From Lampris incognitus (Eukaryota; Chordata; Actinopteri; Lampriformes; Lampridae): a DNA stretch of 64,000 nt. Location of the stretch: positions 11,653,420 to 11,717,419 of the forward strand of contig NC_079219.1 of assembly GCF_029633865.1 (NCBI RefSeq), in the 5' to 3' direction. Shown here one piece after another: positions 1 to 52,513 of this stretch (within the stretch, counting starts at the first letter, position 1; the number at the start of each line of letters is the position of its first letter). Both the position numbers and the translations under genes were made by a program. The notes under the pieces were generated by a model. That model saw only the letters and a program-made list of their open reading frames with translations. It made no database searches and was not told where the DNA came from.

Positions 1-30676
<30,676 letters not shown>

Positions 30677-31534: not shown

Positions 31535-31681
31535 GTGAGTGAAAATATCCCTACTACCATAGTTCAGGTAGTCCATATGTTGGTATTAACCCCACCTAAC
31601 GTCATATAGGTCGATCATATGTTTAAAATAACTACCATTCTACTGTAAACTACTAATAAGACACGTTAGTCCCTAGCTAAC

Positions 31682-32667
31682 GGTATTGTATGAGGAAGTC
31701 AGGAGTTGCAGAGAAGTATGTAGGAGTGGTGCAGGATACGTATGAGGGAAGTGTGACAGTGGTGAGGTGTGCGGTTGGAATGACAGATGGGTTCAAGGTG
31801 GAGGTGGGATTACATCATGGATCGGCTCTGAGCCCTTTCTTGTTTGCAATGGTGATGGACAGGTTGACGGACAAGATCAGGCAGGAGTCTCCATGGACGA
31901 TGATGTTCGCGGATGACATTGTGATCTGTAGTGAGAGTAGGGTGAAGGTTGAGGAGAGCCTGGAGAGGTGGAGGTATGCACTTGAGAGAAGAGGAATGAA
32001 AGTCAGTAGGAGCAAGACGGAATACCTATGCATGAATGACAGTGGAATGGTGAGGATGCAAGGAGTGGAGTTGACGAAGGCATTTGAGTTTAAATACTTG
32101 GGGTCAACCGTCCAAAGTAACGGGGAGTGCAGAGGAGAGTGCAGGCAGGGTGGAGTGGATGGAGAAGTGTGTCAGGAGTGATTTGCGACAGAAGGGTACC
32201 AGCAAGAGTTAACGGGAAAGTTTACAAGATGGTTTTGAGACGACCAGCTATGTTATATGGTTTGGAGACAGTGGCACTGACGAAAAGACAGGAGGCGCAG
32301 CTGGAGGTGGCAGAGTTGAAGATGCTAAGATTTTCACTGGGAGTAACGAAGAAGGACAGGATTAGGAACGATTATATTAGAGGGACCGCTCAGGTTGGAC
32401 GGTTTGGAGACAAAGCAAGAGAGGCAAGATTGAGATGGCTTGGACATGTGTGGAGGAGAGATGCTGAGTATATTGGGAGAAGGATGCTGAATATGGAGCT
32501 GCCAGGGAAGAGGAGAAGAGGAAGGCCAAAGAGGAGGTTTATGGATGTGGTGAGGGAGGACATGCAGGTGGCTGGTGTTACAGAGGAAGATGCAGAAGAC
32601 AGGAAGAACTGGAAACGGATGATCCGCTGTGGCGACCCCTAACGGGAGCAGCCGAAAGTAGTAGTAG
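31682..32667 (+). mobile_element. 5'-truncated RTE-type LINE copy with target-site duplication
   Basis: The sequence encodes the reverse-transcriptase core including FADDIVI, in frame from 31690 to 32181. After a frameshift (overlapping frame 32127-32642) the RT C-terminal region follows. The 3' end is the GTGGCGACCCCTAACGGGAG type followed by AGT repeats. A 15-bp target-site duplication with one mismatch flanks it (31667-31681 and 32668-32682). The copy is dead: it lacks the endonuclease half and the frame is broken. It lies upstream of ttc24. Confidence 0.85.
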
Positions 32668-32684
32668 TAGTCCCTAGCGAACAG

Positions 32685-34226: not shown

Positions 34227-34238
34227 GGGCTATAGTAT

Positions 34239-34457
34239 GGCACAGTGGTTAGCGTGGTCGGCTCACAGCAAGAAGGTCCTGGGTTCGAGCCCCGGGGTAG
34301 TCTAACCTTGGGGGTCGTCCTGGGTCATCCTGTGTGTAGAGTTTGTATGTTCTCCCCGTGTCTGTGTGGGTTTCCTCCTGGGGCTCCGGTTTCCTCCCAC
34401 AGTCCAAAGACATGTAGGTCAGGTGAATCGGCCATGCTAAATTGTCCCTAGGTATGA

Positions 34458-34497
<40 letters not shown>

Positions 34498-34636
34498 ATA
34501 TGTCGGCTCTGTGTGATGGCCTGGCAGCCTGTCCAGGGTGTCTCTCCACCTGCCGCCCAATGACTGCTGGGATAGGCTCCAGCATCCCCGCGACTCTGAG
34601 AGGAGGATAAGCGGTTCAGATAATGGATGGGTGGAT
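34239..34636 (+). mobile_element. DANA/mermaid-like tRNA-derived SINE
   Basis: Head with GTGGTTAGCGTGG and the B-box GGTTCGAGCC, the conserved body (TGTGTAGAGTTTGTATGTTC, CACAGTCCAAAGACATGTAG), an internal GT microsatellite and the GATAAGCGGTTCAGATAATGG tail. A 12-bp duplication flanks it (gggctatagtat at 34227 and gggctacagtat at 34637). The head is slightly shortened. Confidence 0.8.
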
Positions 34637-34648
34637 GGGCTACAGTAT

Positions 34649-35759
34649 AGAAACAAACATCTATGTGTTACAGAGAGTTACAGTTTTAACAGTTTGTGTT
34701 CTTAAAGGAAGTGATGTTTTCAATATAAAACCTTATATCACTCACAAAGAGAGTAAAAAGAGGTTTGCACATCATGAATTTAGACTGTGGAAAAAGTATT
34801 TAGCCAATAGAACAATGAGATTAATCATATAAAATACATTTGCTTCCTTTCATCTATAATCTGTAAATTCGAGAATTATGAGTACATATGGGACCTGTTT
34901 TGCAGAATCCGTCGGTATACTCCCAGTACCACCATAAATATCAATATCCTTTCAGTTTGGAGGTTACAAAAGGTACAAGTCTAGTTACTATCAGTTATAA
35001 ATCTTCTCATAGACTGTGAATTAGGATAAACACCATGTGTGGAATTTTCACTGGAATTTCATCAGGACTGTCAGTACAAAATAACAGGAATATAAAACCG
35101 CAAAATTAGATGATTTGAAATAAAAATCCAAACTGAGTTTGGATTTTTCAGACGTCATTTGAGCCAGTGGACTTTAAACGTGTTTTTAAGAGCTGAAAAA
35201 CTGAGCAAATTCAGACCACATTTTCACACAAAGTCATTACAGATCTTAACATAATGTGTCCTGTTCTTCCATAAGAAATCAAACAGCATCTGATCATCAA
35301 CATGTAAGTTAACAGTGTAAGTAATTTTGACAGGCTTCCAGCCCAGGGAGAAAGAGTTTTTCCTGCTAATGGGGAATTTCTGAACAGCCAATATTTTAAA
35401 CCTCTTCCTCATTTTCTCTCTTATAGGAGTAAAATTGTCTGCATATCTGCTTTTGTCATATGTGGATATGATAACACACAGGTAAGTTACTTTACCGTTC
35501 ACAGGAACATTGCAGATAACTGCTGTTGTACATCGCTTGATTGATAATAATTCACTTTTATTAGTCTTTAGATAAAATTTAGAAGCTTAAAAAAATCTTT
35601 TATTGACCTCAATAGCTAAAAAAATCTGAGTTGAATATTGCATAAACAAGGTGGCGACATCATCCAGTTGACTTAAATGTACGCACACACACATATATAT
35701 ACATATATACACATATATATATATATACATATATACACATATATATATATATATATATA
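34649..35759. other. Intergenic; possible degraded LINE piece and AT microsatellite
   Basis: No gene seen. The minus strand from 35502 to 35224 is open for 92 codons and contains LFDFLWKNRTHYVK, which resembles the tail of L1-type reverse transcriptases; the rest does not match well, so this is weak. 35690-35759 is an (AT)/(ACATAT) simple repeat into which the neighbouring Tc1 element inserted. Confidence 0.35.
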
Positions 35760-36138
35760 CACTACCGTTCAAAAGTTTGGGATCACCCAAACAATTTCGT
35801 GTTTTCCATGAAAAGTCACACTTATTCACCACCATATGTTGTGAAATGAATAGAAAATAGAGTCAAGACATTGACAAGGTTAGAAATAATGATTTGTATT
35901 TGAAATAAGATTTTTTTTACATCAAACTTTGCTTTCGTCAAAGAATCCTCCATTTGCAGCAATTACAGCATTGCAGACCTTTGGCATTCTAGCTGTTAAT
36001 TTGTTGAGGTAATCTGGAGAAATTGCACCCCACGCTTCCAGAAGCAGCTCCCACAAGTTGGATTGGTTGGATGGGCACTTCTTTGAGCAGATTGAGTTTC
36101 TGGAGCATCACATTTGTGGGGTCAATTAAACGCTCAAA

Positions 36139-36426
36139 ATGGCCAGAAAAAGAGAACTGTCATCTGAAACTCGACAGTCTATTCTTGTTCTTAGAAATGA
36201 AGGCTATTCCATGCGAGAAATTGCTAAGAAATTGAAGATTTCCTACACCGGTGTGTACTACTCCCTTCAGAGGACAGCACAAACAGGCTCTAACCAGAGT
36301 AGAAAAAGAAGTGGGAGGCCGCGTTGCACAACTGAGCAAGAAGATAAGTACATTAGAGTCTCTAGTTTGAGAAACAGACGCCTCACAGGTCCCCAACTGG
36401 CATCTTCATTAAATAGTACCTGTTAG
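36139..36426 (+). pseudogene. Tc1 transposase N-terminal fragment (left arm plus loop)
   Basis: 95 codons starting MARKRELSSETRQSILVL: the paired-type helix-turn-helix of Tc1 transposases (EGYSMREIAKKLKISYTGVY), then a GRP motif (RSGRPRCTT) and the start of the second HTH. It ends at a stop where the inverted copy begins. The catalytic DDE domain is absent. Confidence 0.85.
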
Positions 36427-36577
36427 AGCCTGTTTGTGCTGTCCTCTGAAGGGAGTAGTACACACCGGTGTAGGAAATCTTCAATTTCTTAGCAATTTCT
36501 CGCATGGAATAGCCTTCATTTCTAAGAACAAGAATAGACTGTCGAGTTTCAGATGAAAGTTCTCTTTTTCTGGCCAT
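36383..36577 (-). pseudogene. Tc1 transposase N-terminal fragment (right arm, inverted copy)
   Basis: The same first 52 residues as the plus-strand fragment, then divergent read-through into the loop. The two fragments are convergent. Transcription through either would yield a long hairpin RNA. Confidence 0.85.
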
Positions 36578-36956
36578 TTTGAGCGTTTAATTGACCCCAC
36601 AAATGTGATGCTCCAGAAACTCAATCTGCTCAAAGAAGTGCCCATCCAACCAATCCAACTTGTGGGAGCTGCTTCTGGAAGCGTGGGGTGCAATTTCTCC
36701 AGATTACCTCAACAAATTAACAGCTAGAATGCCAAAGGTCTGCAATGCTGTAATTGCTGCAAATGGAGGATTCTTTGACGAAAGCAAAGTTTGATGTAAA
36801 AAAAATCTTATTTCAAATAAAAATCATTATTTCTAACCTTGTCAATGTCTTGACTCTATTTTCTATTCATTTCACAACATATGGTGGTGAATAAGTGTGA
36901 CTTTTCATGGAAAACACGAAATTGTTTGGGTGATCCCAAACTTTTGAACGGTAGTG

Positions 36957-37462
36957 TATATATATTATTTTTTTAGTACACAGCCATATTTACCTCAGTC
37001 GCTACACTATAGTACATATGCCATTTTTCATTTTTTACTTTTTTCTTTTTCTCGTTGCTACTTTTATTGCTAACCCCTGTGAATACTGTGTACACTTGTT
37101 AAATTTTTATTTTTGTTGGACTGTTAAATGTTAAATATTAAAATGCGACTTTGGTCATTTCAGGTGGAAAAAGATCCTGGCCTTTAAATACTGTTAAATT
37201 TTTGATTATAGATTTTAGTTTAACTTTATATTGGTACGTTGTATTTTTTTGTCTTTTTTTTTTTTTTAGATTAGCCTGATGCCTAAGCCTTTCATTGCCA
37301 ACAATGTCTGCCAACATTGGATTTGACAAATAAACTTGAAACCTAAATTGATGTCTCTCTATGATAGTAATTTCGAAGCAGAACCTGCATTAAAGGAGAG
37401 TGACAAAAGTTGGCCCGGCTAGTAACAACAGCTTTCTCTTCTCCCCTCTCACTCTTTTCTAG
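36957..37462. other. Sequence upstream of the ttc24 first coding exon
   Basis: AT-rich, no open coding region. It ends in a pyrimidine tract and CTTTTCTAG at 37454-37462, a good 3' splice site. This suggests the first ttc24 coding exon has a spliced leader rather than a promoter directly upstream. Confidence 0.45.
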
Positions 37463-37497: not shown

Positions 37498-38910
37498 ATG
37501 GCATTTGACAAGGGGAGCAGGGGCTGGAAGAGTATGGCACAGGGGGTGAAGAGGAGGTCCAGGGAGTCAGAGCCTACTGAACTTCAAACGTCCGTAGAAG
37601 AGCTGACGGCGAGTGGCCACTTTTCCCTTCAGAGCGCCCGTTGGGAGGAAGCCCTGATCTGCCTTAAGAAAGCACTCAGAGCTGCTACTGAGGTGAAACC
37701 TGCTTCACTCTTAACTACAGACATGTCGCTGGTAGAAAGACACACTCTCATCTCTGAAATCCTCTTCAGTTATGATGGGCAGATGGACATGAGGAGGTGA
37801 GGACCTCCTTAGGAGAACAGTCGGGGTTGGGGGTTGCAGAAAAGGGCTGTAGCTCAGTGGTTGGAAAGACGGTTTGAGGTTTCTTTTTACACTCACTTTT
37901 CCTGCTCGTTGACAACAAATAGTCGATCTGGAGTTTAGTCACATGTAACCGATCTGGTATGTCGAAGCTACGGTGTTCTTTCATAAAAGCCTCCACACCG
38001 CAGCGCTGTGAGAGGTGGACTGCCTCTGGTTCTCTGTCAGAGAGCTGAGTTTTGCCCTTCACCATCACTGCTTTGATTTAAAACTATGTCAGCAGAGACC
38101 AATCTTCCCTCTTCGTGGGACCCAGACGCTTACACATCCCAGAATTCAGCTGCTCCTTAAACAGTCTTGGCGGTCAAAGAAGCCACGAGGTGAACTAACC
38201 CGCTGTCACTCTTCCCTCTGATCCCTTCATCCTCAGTTGCAGGACCGCAGGGTGCGGCGGGCTTGTTCCTTCAACCTGGGAGCAGCTTACATAGAGATGG
38301 GCAGACCCGAGAAGGGACTGGACTTTCTGAAGCAAGCCCGGCTCTGGGAAAGAGGGGAGCGGGTGGCAGACCTCCAGTTCAACCTGGCTGTGGCTCACCA
38401 GGCGCTGGGGCGGAATGCAGATGCGGCTGGATACTTCCTCCAGGCTGCCCAGCTCTACCGCTCCCAGGGAGACGGGGACAGTGAGGGAGACACCTGTGTG
38501 AAGATGGCCCAGTGCTACATCCAACTCCGGGTCAGAACTATGGTCGAAGCAAAGCTAATCTATAGTACAGACACTACTAATCTAGTAGCATCACTGGTGC
38601 GGCACATACAGTACTGACACACGGCGTACAGACTAACCTAGTACCTCAGTACATACTGACACTCGTGGTACACAGACAACAGGACCTCTAACTGACTAAA
38701 CTAGTTTATTCTTCTAGAAACAATGTTCTACGCTGTGGCATACGTAAATCTTCCGAGCAAGCTTGAGGGAGTTTAAAGTTGATTTGTAGTGTGACTATCT
38801 CAGGTCACGCTGGGATTTTTAATAAGCTGATGGAATTCCAGGGACTCTGAGAGAGAATTTGCTGAGTGTGTGTTTCGAAAACAGCAGTAAAAAATGAATC
38901 AGCTTTCATT

Positions 38911-40049: not shown

Positions 40050-40488
40050 CATTTTTACCTAAACACACACACAATGACATATACACACTTTCATACAAAG
40101 ACATGCATAAACACACACTAACATACACACACACATATTTAAACTTACATAAATGCACTCACAGTCTTGTGTTTGTCTCATAGTGAAGTACTTGCGGGCA
40201 TTATGTCACCTGACAGTGTTAAATAGTTAAATTCTTTGTCAAATCAAACCAACATATAAGATGAATATATACACATACATGGGCGGCACGGTGGCGCAGT
40301 GGTTAGCACGGTCGCCTCACAGCAAGTAGGTCCTGGGTTTGAGCCCCGGGGTAGTCCAGCCCTGGGGGTCGTTCTGGGTCATCCTCTGTGTGGAGTTTGC
40401 ATGTTCTCCCCGTGTCTATGTGGGTTTCCACAGTCCAAAGACATGTAAGTCAGGTGAATCGGCCATACTAGATTGTCCCTAGGTATGA

Positions 40489-40566
<78 letters not shown>

Positions 40567-43500
40567 CCTGTGATGGCCTGGCAGCCTGTCCAGGGTGTCT
40601 CCCCACCTGCTGTCCAGTGACTGCTGGGATAGGCTCCAGCATCCCCGTGACCCTGGGGGCAGGATAAGCGGTTTGGATAATGGCTGGATGGATGGATGGA
40701 TGGATGGCAAAAAAGCATTACATATAAATTTGGTCTGACAAATTTGCACAATTCTGATTTTCCTGACAGGTACTTATAGTGAAAATAAAAAAAAACAACT
40801 TTAAAATACAACATTATGGGCATGAACATTAGTAAGTAAATGCTTAGCTGAATGACACCCATGGTTTTGACCGACAGCATAACTCCTTATCTCTCCTCAT
40901 GACATGGAGCATGACCTGTCACTCCAGGTCAGGGAGACGTCGCCTTCCTTTCCAGTAGATGACCTTAGTCTCCGTTCTGTTCCCCACCCTTAAACTCTGT
41001 GTGTGTGTGTGTGTGTCTGTCTGTCTGTCTGTCTGTGTGTGTGTCTGTGTGTGTGTCTGTGTGTGTGTAGGGTCACTGCGTAACAGGGGATCTCAGGCCA
41101 GGTGTTTTAGTAACCTGGCATTAGCATGCAGGGAGCTGAAAAACAACCAAGAGGCAGCAGAGAACTTCTTGCATGCCCTGCAGGCTTTCAGAGACACAGG
41201 TACCTGTCTGTCTATCAGCACCTATCCATCTGCCTGTCTGTCTATCCATCTGTCTGACAATCCAGCTGTCCCTGTGTCTGTCTGTCTAATTTGCCTGTCT
41301 GTCCATTTGTTTGTCCGTCTGTCTGTCTGCCTTTGTGTCTGTCCATCCATCCGTCTCAAGGTTTGTCTCCATCACTCTGTTTATTAGTACGCCCGTCAAT
41401 GTCCATCTCATCCTTTATGCCCTCACTGTGAAGAGTGTTAATACGTACGTGTGGAGGGTTAAAGAGAGAGGGGGGGGGGCGAGAGCGAGACAGGAGGTTC
41501 TCTCTATCCTCTAATGTTCTGTTTTAGTCACAGCTGAACTTAATTATGGCTCTCCTGATATTCTCTCTCTCTCGCTCTCTCCCCCCTCTCTCTTGCTCAC
41601 ACACACACACACACATTCTTCTGTTCCTCTTCCTTTTGAACTCAGTGTTAATGAGTGCTGAGGACACAAGACTCATTACTCTTTAGATGAAATTAAAGTG
41701 AATAACACCAGCCAAGAATTTGGTCTTTTCTGCCAGTCACTGACCACCCTATTCTATTGTAAACATCCTATTCTATTCTCAGCAGCCTGTTCTAGTCCAT
41801 TCTACTGTAAACATAAGATGATGGAAACATGATCTATTGTAAAGGCCCCTTTCTTTTGTAAACATTCTCTTCATTCATAAATCTCGTGTTCTATTGTAAA
41901 CATCCTGTTCTATTCTCAATGTCATCATCGTCATCATCATCATCAGTTCCGTAACCTGATGCCTCAACAGGTTGAGTCATCATTGTGTTTTAGTGGGGGG
42001 GGGGGTACCTGGTAGTCCCTATCTCCTCCCCAGGTATGGATGGCCGTTGGTTCACAGAGGAACTTATCCACCCTTTGACAGGTTTTGTTTTTAGTCCTGC
42101 TGGGTGTCCGCAAACCCTCCTCACAACAACCCAAAGGTTGAAGTGGGGGTGCCGGTTTAGTCGCCAATGACCCGGCAGTTGCAGTTTAACGTCGTACCCA
42201 AGACCGTTCTCAATATACAGTTGTATTATAAACATCCTTTTCTATAGTAAACATCATCTTCCATCATAAACATTCTGTTCTACTGTAAAACTCCTGCTCT
42301 GTTTTAAATCTATTGTTCCACTGTAAACATTCTATCACATTCTAAACATCCGGTTCTATTCTAAACATCTAAATGACTGTAAATTAGTGACGATTGTAGA
42401 TTATTCTGCAAATGGTACCTGTCCTTTTGATGGCTCACTGTCTGTCTGTCTCTCTGTCTCTGCAGGAGATCACCCTGGTCAGCGTCAGGTGTGTGAAGCT
42501 TTAGGTGAGACCTACTTTACACTGAGAGAACTACATAAATCCATCCAGTACTATAAACAGGCCCTGGCTGCTCTCCCACCCTGCCAGGTAAGTTCTTCAC
42601 AACACCTCAACTCAGCACAAGTCCACTACTGTTCAGAAGCAAGAAGGAATGAGATGAGAATAGAGGGGATGGAGCGGACAGTTTTTGTAAAGCGGACATT
42701 CATATAAAGTGGATAGTCTTTATAAAACGGTCTTTAGAGAAAGATATTGTTGTAGAAGGGACAACTTCAGTCTTTACACTACTGCTGCTCTTTGGCTCCA
42801 CCTCATTGAAGATCTTTTCTTTTTAACAGTGAGGGGTCACAGCATTTGTCAAGGCATTGGTCTCATGTCTGTATGAGGAACAGTTGACTGCAGTAGTATA
42901 ACAGAATTGAGGAACAGATGGATTCTCTCTCTCTCTCTCTGTAGGACTGGTGTGTGTCAGTGCAGGAGCGTCTGGTAAACAAGCTGACGACAGCACTGCA
43001 GCAGCAGCTGTATCTGAGTCTGACCGGAGGACTGCAGGTCTGTAACAACACCCCAGCTGCAGTAAAACCAATAAGAATCCACCAGATAGTGGAAGGAAGC
43101 TCCAGGGTCCGGTTTACATCCCAAAACTGCACACTCTACCATGTGTGCTTTCAAAACTTCCACTATGCTAATGAAAACTCGCCGTCTGTACTGACAAGTC
43201 CACTCTGTGCAGGAGGTTTCGGGTTTCTTTGCCCACCCCTCATTTGCATATTAGACAGCGATTGGCTTTTGGATTTATGACATACCAAATCTAGCTCGTA
43301 CACTTGAATCTCAGATTTTAGGGAAGTGCACAGACAGTTGCTCCTCCGGTACAGGAATGTGGAAACACCGCTCTAGCGACAAACTCTGCACAGACGCAAG
43401 TCTGTGTAGTCAAGGTCAGACATTTTAGGGGACAAAAACATAAGAAAAACAGATTTTTGAGTGGAGGCGTACTTTAACAAGTAGACTCGTTATTTATTAC

Positions 43501-45808
43501 AAACCACTTTCGACCATATTGGGCGACCGGTTTAAAATTAGTTTGAAAAAGTGATTTGGCAAAATTCACAGACCCTGGGAAAAGAAAGGGAGGAAAAAAT
43601 TTGGTTCAGGGTCTTTTACCTTCATCTCTGTTCAGTGAATTAATCAGTGCTTAATCAATGAAGAAGTTGATTGCTTTATAGCACCAGCAGGAAGCCAGCT
43701 GTAAACATAGTTTAAATAATAAGACAATAAGGACATCCTGGTTCAAATCCCTGTGTTAACTCTGGCTTGGTCAGGCGTCCCTACAGACACAATTGGCCGT
43801 GTCTGCGGGTGGGAAGCCGGATGTGGGTATGTGTCCTGGTCGCTGCACTAGCGCCTCCTCTGGTCAGTCGGGGTGTCTGTTCGGGTGGAGGGGGGTGGGG
43901 AATAGCATGATCCTCCCACATGCTACGTCCCCTGACGAAACTCCTCACTACTACTACTACTTTCAGCTGCTCCCGTTAGGGGGCGCTACAGCGGATCATC
44001 CGTTTCCATTTCTTCCTGTCCTCTGCATCTTCCTCTGTAACACCAGCCACCTGCATGTCCTCCCTCACCACATCCATAAACCTCCTCTTTGGCCTTCCTC
44101 TTCTCCTCTTCCCTGGCAGCTCCATATTCAGCATCCTTCCCCCAATATACCCAGCATCTCTCCTCCACACATGTCCAAGCCGTCTCAATCTTGTCTCTCT
44201 TGCTTTGTCTCCAAACCGTCCAATCTGAGCGGTCCCTCTAATATACTCGTTCCTAATCTTGTCCTTCTTCGTTACTCCCAGTGAAAATCTTAGCATCTTC
44301 AACTCTGCCACCTCCAGCTCCGCCTCCTGTCTTTTCGTCAGTGCCACTGTCTCCAAACCATATAACATAGCTGGTCTCACAACCATCTTGTAAACTTTCC
44401 CTTTAACTCCTCACTGTCAGGCGAAAAGAAGGGGCGACTCCACAGAGGAGGCATGTGGTAGTCTGCAGCCCTCCCCAGATTGGCAGAGGGGGTGGAGCAG
44501 TGACCGGGGAGGCTCGGAAGAGTGGGGTAATTGGCCGGATACAATTGGGGAGAAAAAGGGGGGGAAATCCAATCAATAGATAGATAAATAAATAAACAAA
44601 CAAATAAATAACACAACATGCAGAGAAGATCTCACACACCAAGTTTTGTTTGAAGTGATCATCTTTAACTTATTCATATGGTGGAATGTCTGTTTCGTTG
44701 CTACCTATCGCGACTACGATTCAGTTTACTCTCAGTCCATGAAAGCCTTTGCTTTTGAAAGTGTCTGCATTTTTAAAAATGGTGTTGGTACAACACTTTC
44801 CGTGAAAACAATTTTTCAAGCTGCCCATATGAACCATGAAAAGGAACTGAGGCATTGCACTCCAGTCACTAGCAGCAGTCGGCCGACAAGAGAGGACTGT
44901 CACAACTTCCGGTTTGGGTTGCTGTCACAGGACCATGGGTCACGCCTCGATGCCAAGTATGGGGTCAGTCAGACGAAGCATCAATTAACTACAGATGTGT
45001 TTGTCAACTTGGCCCGCCCTACCCCAAAATCAACTGACACATGGCAGCCATACTGTGTACACAACTCTAACCATGTCTCTGTGTGTGTGTGTGTCTCACT
45101 GTTTTTTTCTCTCTTGTACTCTGTCTCTCTCTCTGAACAGAGAGGGAAAGGTCCACATGTCCCGCCACCTAGAATGACTGACAGGTAGGTCCCAGCCAAT
45201 CAGCACCACCGTGAGCATTTAACACCAGCGAGGTTCCCACGGTAATCAAGCTGCGTTTCCAACAGGCTAACAGACATCCCGGTTTCACGGACAGGGCGGC
45301 AACTCCTGGGCCAAGCCTCTGATTCCAGTCTTCCATCCTACTCTCAAAACAGCCCTGAAGTGACAGGTAAACACACAAATGGTGCTCTCTCAGTGTAGTT
45401 TTAGTGCTGGAGTGCCGCTCTCAGTAACAGTGTTTATCCCATGTTGCCACAGACAGTTGACTCAGTTCAGCTGGACACAGCGTTTAGTGGGAGAAACGTC
45501 TCATCACTCACCTCCTCAGTCTCAACTGACTGCAGGCACCCCCACCCTTATAAGCAACACAGTGGCATAACTGGTTGGTTGGGGCTGAGGTGGGGGGGAT
45601 ACCTGCGGTCAGCTGAGACTGAAGAGGTCACTTGGATGAGTGATGAGGCGTTTCTCCCACTAAACGCTGTGTCCAGATGAACTGATGCAACTTCCTGTGG
45701 TTTCCTGTATTATTGAGCACGCATCAAAAAAAGACATTTCCTGTTTGTGAGTGCAGGGCGGAGCCGTGTGGACACGAATAAGGAAGCAGATGATTGTGGG
45801 TAAGCTGT

Positions 45809-49023: not shown

Positions 49024-49384
49024 TCCATCCATCCATCCATCCATCCATCTATCATCCAAACTGCTTATCCTGCTCTCAGGGTCGCTGGAGCCTATCCCAG
49101 CAGTCATTGGGCGGCAGGTGGGGAGACACCCTAGACAGACCACCCCCCTATTCACACCCAGGGACAATTCAGTACGGCCGATTCACCTGACCTACACGTC
49201 TTTGGACTGTGGGGGGAAACCGGAGCCCCCGGAGGAAACCCACGCAGACACGGGGAGAACGTGCAAACTCCACACAGAGGACCACCCGGGACGACCCCCA
49301 GGGTTGGACTACCCCGGGGCCCGAACCCAGGACCTTCTTGCTGTGAGGCGACCGCGCTAACCGCTGCGCCACCGTGCCGCCCCC
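49024..49384 (-). mobile_element. DANA/mermaid-like SINE, minus orientation
   Basis: Starts with the reversed (ATGG)n tail, continues through the inverse body (ACACGTCTTTGGACTGTGGG; AACGTGCAAACTCCACACAG) and ends at the reversed tRNA-like head (CGCTGCGCCACCGTGCCGCC). This is the least decayed head of the family here. Confidence 0.85.
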
Positions 49385-51774: not shown

Positions 51775-52162
51775 TAGAAGTAGAAATGAAGCCTCACAGT
51801 GTGTGTACCTGGGGTTCCACACTCCATACTTCAGGCTGATGACCGCAGGCTTGTAATCAGGGTTTTACAATTTACAGGAAAGCCAAAGAGTGAAGAAGTT
51901 GTCAGGATTTTGGTTTTTTGGTTTTTGTGCTTGCGTCAGTGGTAAATATATATATGCAAGTGTCCATTTAGAGAAGATTTGTTTGAATTTGTAGTCCGGG
52001 TAGGCCTTTAGGTAGATCTGTGCATCAGGATTCAAATATCTATAATGCTGAACAACTCAAATGTCCAAACATAACCAGCTCACACATAAACCAAACATGA
52101 CACATGACAAGACTGTATCATGGTGCAACAGACAGACAGGGAGACAGACAGTCAGACATGGG

Positions 52163-52513
52163 GGAAGGCACGGTGGCCCGGTGGTTGCCGCTGTCGCCTC
52201 ACAGCAAGAAGGTCCTGGGTTCGAATTCCAGGGTAGTCCAACCTGGGGGGGGGGGGGTCATCCTCTGTGTGGTGTTTGCAGTGAGTTTTCTCCGGGTGCT
52301 CCGGTTTCCCCCACCATCGAAAAGACATGCATGTTAGGGGTTAATACTCCTGTCTGTGCCCCTCACCAAGGCAATGGCAAGACGAACTGGAGTCGGTCCC
52401 CGGGCGCTGCACGGAGGCTGTCCACTGCACCTCGCTACACAGCTAGCATGGGTTAAACGCAGAGCAGACTTTCCCTACGGGGATTAATATAGTATATGAA
52501 AAATTAAAAAAAG
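52163..52513 (+). mobile_element. SINE with DANA-like head and a different tail
   Basis: The head GGCACGGTGGCCCGGTGGTTG and B-box GGTTCGAATTCC match the DANA-like family. After the TCCGGTTTCC segment the sequence switches to a tail with CTCACCAAGGCAATGGCAAG, GGTCCCCGGGCGCTGCACGG and ACGGGGATTAATATAGTATA. This is a distinct subfamily or chimera. Confidence 0.7.

Follow-up and report, generated by a model that had tools for sequence, protein, structure and literature searches.

The birth of foldback and non-autonomous transposon families is often inferred when the parent has already gone. Tc4 of C. elegans, attributed to Yuan et al. in 1991, is reportedly a fold-back Tc element with long, near-perfect inverted repeats and a short unique middle, and we know of no series leading from a coding Tc4 element to a palindrome. 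Within the Tc1/mariner superfamily, the Intruder elements (DD38E/IT) are described in the available text as being 1.5–1.7 kb long, encoding 341–379 aa, and having invaded ray-finned fish recently, with copies that resemble one another (PMC7731502). Mu killer of maize contains two copies of one end together with an inverted piece of the transposase, and the accessible portion of the paper puts forward antisense transcripts and opposes the model first proposed, that of a read-through hairpin (PMC3440606). Miniature inverted-repeat elements (MITEs) are defined, in the available part of PMC4877112, as amplified elements that are generally under 600 bp and without coding potential.

The window (the whole stretch of 64,000 nucleotides that was analyzed, on contig C12 of the host assembly) contains a palindromic Tc1-type element, the features of which are collected in Table 1. 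The initial annotation had described a 1.2-kb near-perfect palindrome with two 535-bp arms, two mismatches, no indel and a 127-bp loop, and all of these figures were verified (2/535 mismatches and 0 indels in the window copy). The mismatches are G/T at 35896 and G/T at 36159, the latter being a synonymous CTG/CTT difference in the N-terminal ORF. Nine bases of the (TA)n tract in the flanks stretch the match of the arms to 544 bp, and past these only scattered matches were found between the 60-base flanks. The longest exact inverted repeat was 262 bp in the element versus 15–18 bp in 10 shuffles of the window, and a blastn search of the window with the element as query (E ≤ 1e-3) returned nothing besides the element itself and its own inverse. 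The arms make up 1070 of the 1197 bp, which gives the element the long inverted repeats and short middle of the foldback type.

Table 1. Features of the palindromic element and its neighborhood (window positions)
Feature	Position	Strand	Remarks
Complete palindromic (foldback) Tc1-type element	35760..36956		1197 bp; end-to-end in 28/30 fetched copies
Left arm	35760..36294	+	535 bp
Right arm	36422..36956	-	535 bp, inverted copy of left arm
Single-copy loop	36295..36421	+	127 bp
TA target dinucleotide, left	35758..35759		within (TA)n tract
TA target dinucleotide, right	36957..36958		seen in the sequence
27-bp terminal inverted repeat, also in canonical element	35760..35786		perfect in canonical copy L032
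Inverted canonical 3′ end: terminal repeat, 3′ untranslated part, transposase C-terminal coding	35760..36083	-	stop-codon side outward
Fusion A (inverted 3′ end / 5′ leader)	36081..36083		3-bp overlap CTT, microhomology
Canonical 5′ leader and transposase codons 1–94	36081..36420	+	runs unbroken through loop
Truncated transposase ORF	36139..36426	+	95 aa and stop; helix-turn-helix region only
Fold-back junction B	36421..36422		forward template to 36420, extra T at 36421, inverted copy from 36422
Right-arm N-terminal transposase ORF	36386..36577	-	64 aa
Right-arm canonical 3′ end	36633..36956	+	C-terminal coding, stop at 36792-36794
iqgap-like gene, CH and RasGAP domains	30096-30359 and 4115-4444	-	domain matches; name presumptive

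In a normal Tc1 element, the N- and C-terminal coding parts of the transposase lie on one strand. Because they lie on opposite strands in each arm of the palindrome, the arm is a head-to-head fusion, and both termini of the element are 3′ ends. The initial annotation had read the arm as a terminal repeat followed by N-terminal coding sequence; the N-terminal coding sequence is in the inner part, and the nature of the outer ∼324 bp, a 3′ end with C-terminal coding sequence, had been missed. In comparison with three canonical copies, the outer piece was 98.8–99.4% identical to the canonical 3′ end across 324 bp, while the piece with the 5′ leader was 99.7% identical over 340 bp and gave N-terminal HTH matches; arm positions 322–324 are covered by both pieces at fusion A. 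The layout of junction B was read by comparison with one of the intermediate copies described below (L039). The peptide of the inner arm matched HTH families, and in a separate search the PAI subdomain of Sleeping Beauty was the second match (E 0.036). For the outer C-terminal peptide, the best PDB match was the catalytic domain of Sleeping Beauty (positions 184–220/230), at a weak E of 0.21, and the 51-aa piece matched no family in Pfam. Its score against the Sleeping Beauty fragment was 66, the maximum of 5,000 shuffles was 44, and the next best among the 1,666 reading segments of the window, besides the two arms, scored 37. Both assignments were confirmed by the canonical copies fetched later. 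The 95-aa ORF was retained in 24 of 29 palindromes. The 94-aa N-terminal and 51-aa C-terminal peptides had no relatives in the non-vertebrate collections viral_contigs and genome_contigs, and the element DNA had no match among the phages or plasmids of the non-vertebrate collections. Short DNA and protein strings of the element gave no literature match. No palindromic Tc1 family in fish appeared in the available text of the literature matches listed, and Repbase or Dfam may contain such a consensus.

On one side, the window element is neighbored by a minus-strand gene encoding CH and RasGAP domains, and on the other by a plus-strand gene that gave TPR matches; the first-exon piece of the latter matched nothing in Pfam. 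The first ATG of the latter gene was presumptively taken at 37498, 542 bp downstream of the element; this fits the earlier placement upstream of ttc24, a gene name that is itself presumptive. Such a position near a promoter would be compatible with transcription of a hairpin. Other repeats in the window include a 254-bp imperfect palindrome (75%) at 45447-45700, with a partial second copy at 27986-28111, which is perhaps an older MITE. A dispersed repeat occurs on both strands (4912-5291, 25691-26084, 34238-34638, 40281-40696, 49036-49382 and 52153-52338); most of its copies are 350–430 bp long with (CA)n-like tracts, and pairs are about 69–90% alike. LINE-like fragments with endonuclease and reverse-transcriptase matches were found at 12136-14293, 31681-32671 and 43947-44409, and 32206-32671 is 96% alike to 43947-44409 in opposite orientation.

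The host assembly (1,481,484,146 bases, 1.48 Gb, in 537 contigs) was then searched with patterns, which miss diverged copies. The 29-mer across junction B, from the loop into the right arm, matched with at most one mismatch at 5,775 places and its reversed control at 0. A search with this junction had been proposed as the check on the initial annotation, and the recurrence of the same junction strongly supports an amplified foldback family. The exact 27-mer across fusion A matched at 11,058 places (control 0), which is near two per palindrome. Among the first 100 fusion-A places listed, 90 formed 45 head-to-head pairs and 10 were single; 42 of the 45 pairs were spaced by exactly 550 bp, as the palindrome predicts. 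If all 5,775 were full-length copies of 1197 bp, palindromes would occupy ∼0.47% of the genome (6.9 Mb).

The palindromes analyzed in detail were the first 30 junction places, all in the first part of contig C1 and hence not a random sample. Twenty-eight were end-to-end, including two (L007 and L018) of 1186 bp (∼11 bp short), and two disrupted copies (L011 and L029) were excluded from the alignment. The 28 copies and the window copy differ from their consensus by 1–7 bases (mean 3.4/1197, 0.29%), and the consensus arms differ at 1 of 535 positions. TA was present on both sides of the window copy and of 27 of the 28 other end-to-end palindromes, as in Tc1/mariner elements. Together with the junction count, the fetched copies establish a multicopy family of one structure, as is characteristic of the foldback type, and some variants recur in several copies, which suggests that existing palindromes gave rise to new ones. 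The flanks of the fetched palindromes were mostly unrelated, although a few share repeat-like stretches. Two copies (L017 and L028) have common flanks in opposite orientation (∼97%), from insertion into one repeat or from segmental duplication; because of this match, not every copy need be a separate insertion. Two shortened copies were also seen, both at fusion-A places outside the pairs. One (L081, 1-3001, with the element on the minus strand) is a 930-bp deleted palindrome in which positions 1–672 are joined to 938–1197, and the loss of much of one arm is possibly a next stage of shortening; the other (L082) is a truncated palindrome.

The two arms of a copy differed on average at 2.93 positions per 535 bp in the 29 palindromes, compared with 2.70 (left-left), 3.03 (right-right) and 3.26 (left-right) between palindromes, and general concerted evolution of the arms is thereby ruled out. 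At three of four variable sites, some copies carried the right-arm variant on both of their arms (5, 1 and 1 copies); the fourth site showed it on the right arm only (3 copies), and none of the four showed it on the left arm alone, which gives a hint of occasional arm-to-arm conversion. At element position 39 and its mirror, the left/right states of the 29 copies were T/C in 17, C/C in 5 and T/T in 7, and never C/T. These states suggest occasional conversion and no flipping of the loop, and T/T may be ancestral.

ORF-bearing relatives with the same ends as the palindrome occur in the same genome. At the place of junction B, a matched 29-mer in which the gene runs on was found at 3,082 places of the host assembly (control 0), and a 31-base pattern of the uninterrupted gene without mismatches at 2,910 (control 0). 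Near-perfect palindromes of more than 1 kb are generally held to be unstable, and it was unexpected that places with junction B outnumbered those where the gene runs through by a factor of 1.9. Fifty gene-bearing copies were examined, all on contig C1 and not a random sample, and TA was present on both sides in 45 of the 48 in which both ends were found. Canonical elements accounted for 46 of the 50, typically with 1618 bp, and 35 of the 46 retained a 347-aa transposase ORF. In one canonical copy (L032), the 27-bp terminal repeat was perfect, and the same 27 bp open the palindrome; its protein matched HTH_Tnp_Tc3_2 (E 8.9e-18) and DDE_3 (E 1.4e-11), so that the terminal repeat and the HTH and DDE domains are those of Tc1/mariner. 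With the catalytic residues assigned by motif, the D2-E spacing was 38 in 34 of the 36 scored 347-aa copies, the other two being without the D2 motif string.

The remaining four gene-bearing copies (L039, L060, L068 and L080) are intermediate in structure. They are 1585–1586 bp long, contain fusion A once, have two 3′ ends, and retain the 347-aa ORF in 4/4; each consists of palindrome positions 1–661 followed by the canonical remainder. A fifth intermediate with the 347-aa ORF (L083) was found when 3 of the 10 unpaired fusion-A places were fetched. From this contig C1 sample, the share of intermediates among gene-bearing copies can be put at around 8%, within wide error limits. The divergence from the respective consensus was 0.29% for canonical elements (44 copies with both ends found), 0.35% for intermediates (4) and 0.29% for palindromes (29), and the three classes look like one recent episode. 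Because all classes are about equally young, the divergence does not prove the order from intermediate to palindrome. At an assumed 2e-9 to 1e-8 substitutions per site per year, the age would be roughly 0.3–1.4 million years; it may be lower, given that 17 of the 99 substitutions among palindromes are CpG transitions.

In all likelihood, the window element belongs to a very young, high-copy, non-autonomous foldback family that arose from a canonical Tc1-like parent (DD38E, Intruder-like) by two wrong-end repair events and that would move in trans. Excision of a Tc1 element would leave a break, and both ends of the break would copy a sister or homologous element. In event A, the 3′ end would have served as template for both break ends, and these would have been joined at the 5′ leader; the result would be fusion A, with its 3-bp overlap, in an element that keeps the ORF, has terminal repeats of ∼324 bp and carries a 3′ end on either side. 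In event B, given repeats of this length, both ends would have copied inward from the new left end, over 661 and 535 bp, and been joined with an extra T; the 127-bp loop would then be the difference between 661 and 535 bp plus the T. Since the 27-bp terminal repeats and TA targeting are kept, the transposase of the parent could mobilize the palindrome in trans, and the palindrome would have been amplified as such to about 5,800 copies. A short overlap or filler at the joints fits end-joining after interrupted gap repair, and the available part of a review deals with the copying from a homologous element that follows excision (PMC3878927). The three structures were read from the copies themselves, and from them we infer the mechanism of birth. 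A foldback lineage that amplifies in trans had been one of the two suggestions of the initial annotation; the copy number, with 5,775 junctions and near-identical end-to-end copies, strongly supports the amplification, and movement in trans is the probable route. In the other suggestion, an inverted duplicate of a 5′ half had overwritten the 3′ half; this covers the second rearrangement only, since the 5′ half in question already starts with an inverted 3′ end, and the one-step origin of the initial annotation is rejected.

A two-step origin leads one to expect an intermediate with two 3′ ends and the whole gene, and 4 of the 50 sampled gene-bearing copies match it. The two wrong-end events were recorded before any copy was seen in the genome search, although the explicit ORF-bearing form of the intermediate was not in that record. 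An unlikely reading, though one with real weight, is that the intermediate is a recombinant rather than an ancestor, made up of the left half of a palindrome and the right portion of a canonical element, for instance after an excised palindrome was gap-repaired on a canonical template; a canonical element would then have given rise to the palindrome in a single but more complex event involving two switches. The composition of the intermediate allows both directions, and its rarity (4/50) would agree with a recombinant, but two template switches at once are needed for the birth of the palindrome, and the two-step origin was put down beforehand. The 347-aa ORF in 5/5 intermediates also speaks for an ancestor, yet the same ORF would be expected in a recombinant formed with a canonical element. 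Long palindromes are in general hard to sequence and assemble, and a false inverted duplication might be considered; however, the same breakpoint recurs thousands of times, the symmetry of the window copy stops at the element ends apart from the TA-tract bases, and copies carry differing substitutions, so that an assembly or sequencing artefact is very unlikely, close to negligible, given 28 further end-to-end copies. The chance that a single Tc1 copy was rearranged locally at the window locus is smaller again and practically nil, as the copy number refutes it: the same junction occurs at 5,775 places, and 28 of 30 fetched copies are end-to-end with mostly unrelated flanks. A canonical relative, a gene-bearing form with two 3′ ends and a palindrome with 535-bp arms coexist in one genome at ∼0.3% divergence with readable breakpoints, and the model of wrong-end copying during gap repair is therefore directly testable.

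Most likely, the palindrome is selfish and non-autonomous and parasitizes its parent. The excess of palindromes may need more than the two 3′ ends to explain it, because the intermediate shares this feature and yet is rare; the shorter length and the loss of the gene are candidate reasons. The RNA of the element is predicted to fold into one near-perfect hairpin (−1028 kcal/mol); self-silencing by such RNA, in line with the siRNA suggested in the initial annotation, would be possible. It is unexpected that a genome with the gene content of a fish holds thousands of templates for long, near-perfect double-stranded RNA against an apparently intact transposon. According to a further, distinctly doubtful model, the palindrome would both parasitize and switch off its parent: copies transcribed from neighboring promoters would yield 535-bp hairpins with N- and C-terminal coding sequence, and the burst would be self-limiting and leave one cohort in which parents, intermediates and palindromes are equally young. 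If this were true, thousands of dispersed silencing triggers would end the transposition of the whole family, and animals would have a self-limiting counterpart to the Mu killer of maize. In vertebrates, hairpin RNA may instead be edited by ADAR; RNA editing is abundant in zebrafish RNA according to the available passages of PMC8096273, in which transposons are not mentioned. Less probable still is repression of the parent by the putative 95-aa N-terminal transposase, expressed as a DNA-binding competitor without a catalytic domain. The ORF in 24/29 copies and its HTH matches would suit this role, but the canonical 5′ end, with any promoter there, is absent from the palindrome, and open ORFs are expected at such an age without selection.

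Among the known systems, Tc4, in its reported structure, resembles the palindrome in its long inverted repeats and superfamily, and a variant, Tc4v, is named in the available text. It is another family, with the target CTNAG and a TNA duplication according to that text, versus TA here. The D2-E spacing, element length and protein size of the canonical relative fit an Intruder-like element; its DD38E spacing, 1618 bp and 347 aa lie inside the ranges given in the accessible text of PMC7731502. The published Intruder elements described there are canonical, whereas the palindrome and the form with two 3′ ends are derivatives, and no words beginning with “MITE” occur in the main text as available (PMC7731502). 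The palindrome is amplified like a MITE, but its 1197 bp and retained coding pieces place it outside that class. The portion of the Mu killer paper available provides a precedent for silencing by such a structure; Mu killer, however, is a single locus of another superfamily that silences MuDR, without an amplified mobile family (PMC3440606). A Bari1 variant of Drosophila rhopaloa resembles the intermediate: it is of Tc1 type and putatively autonomous, and its two long terminal repeats are identical to each other. The Bari repeats are about 250 bp long in the text available and presumably non-coding, whereas the long repeat here includes 3′ transposase coding sequence (PMC4877112). Foldback, Galileo and Tetris share with the palindrome long inverted repeats and amplified families that are often non-autonomous; in the accessible text of the sources, PMC4079207 among them, these elements are mostly assigned to Mutator, and Galileo is assigned to the P superfamily and has internally repetitive repeats. 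For Tetris, no autonomous copy was reported, whereas here both the canonical parent and the intermediate are present in the genome.
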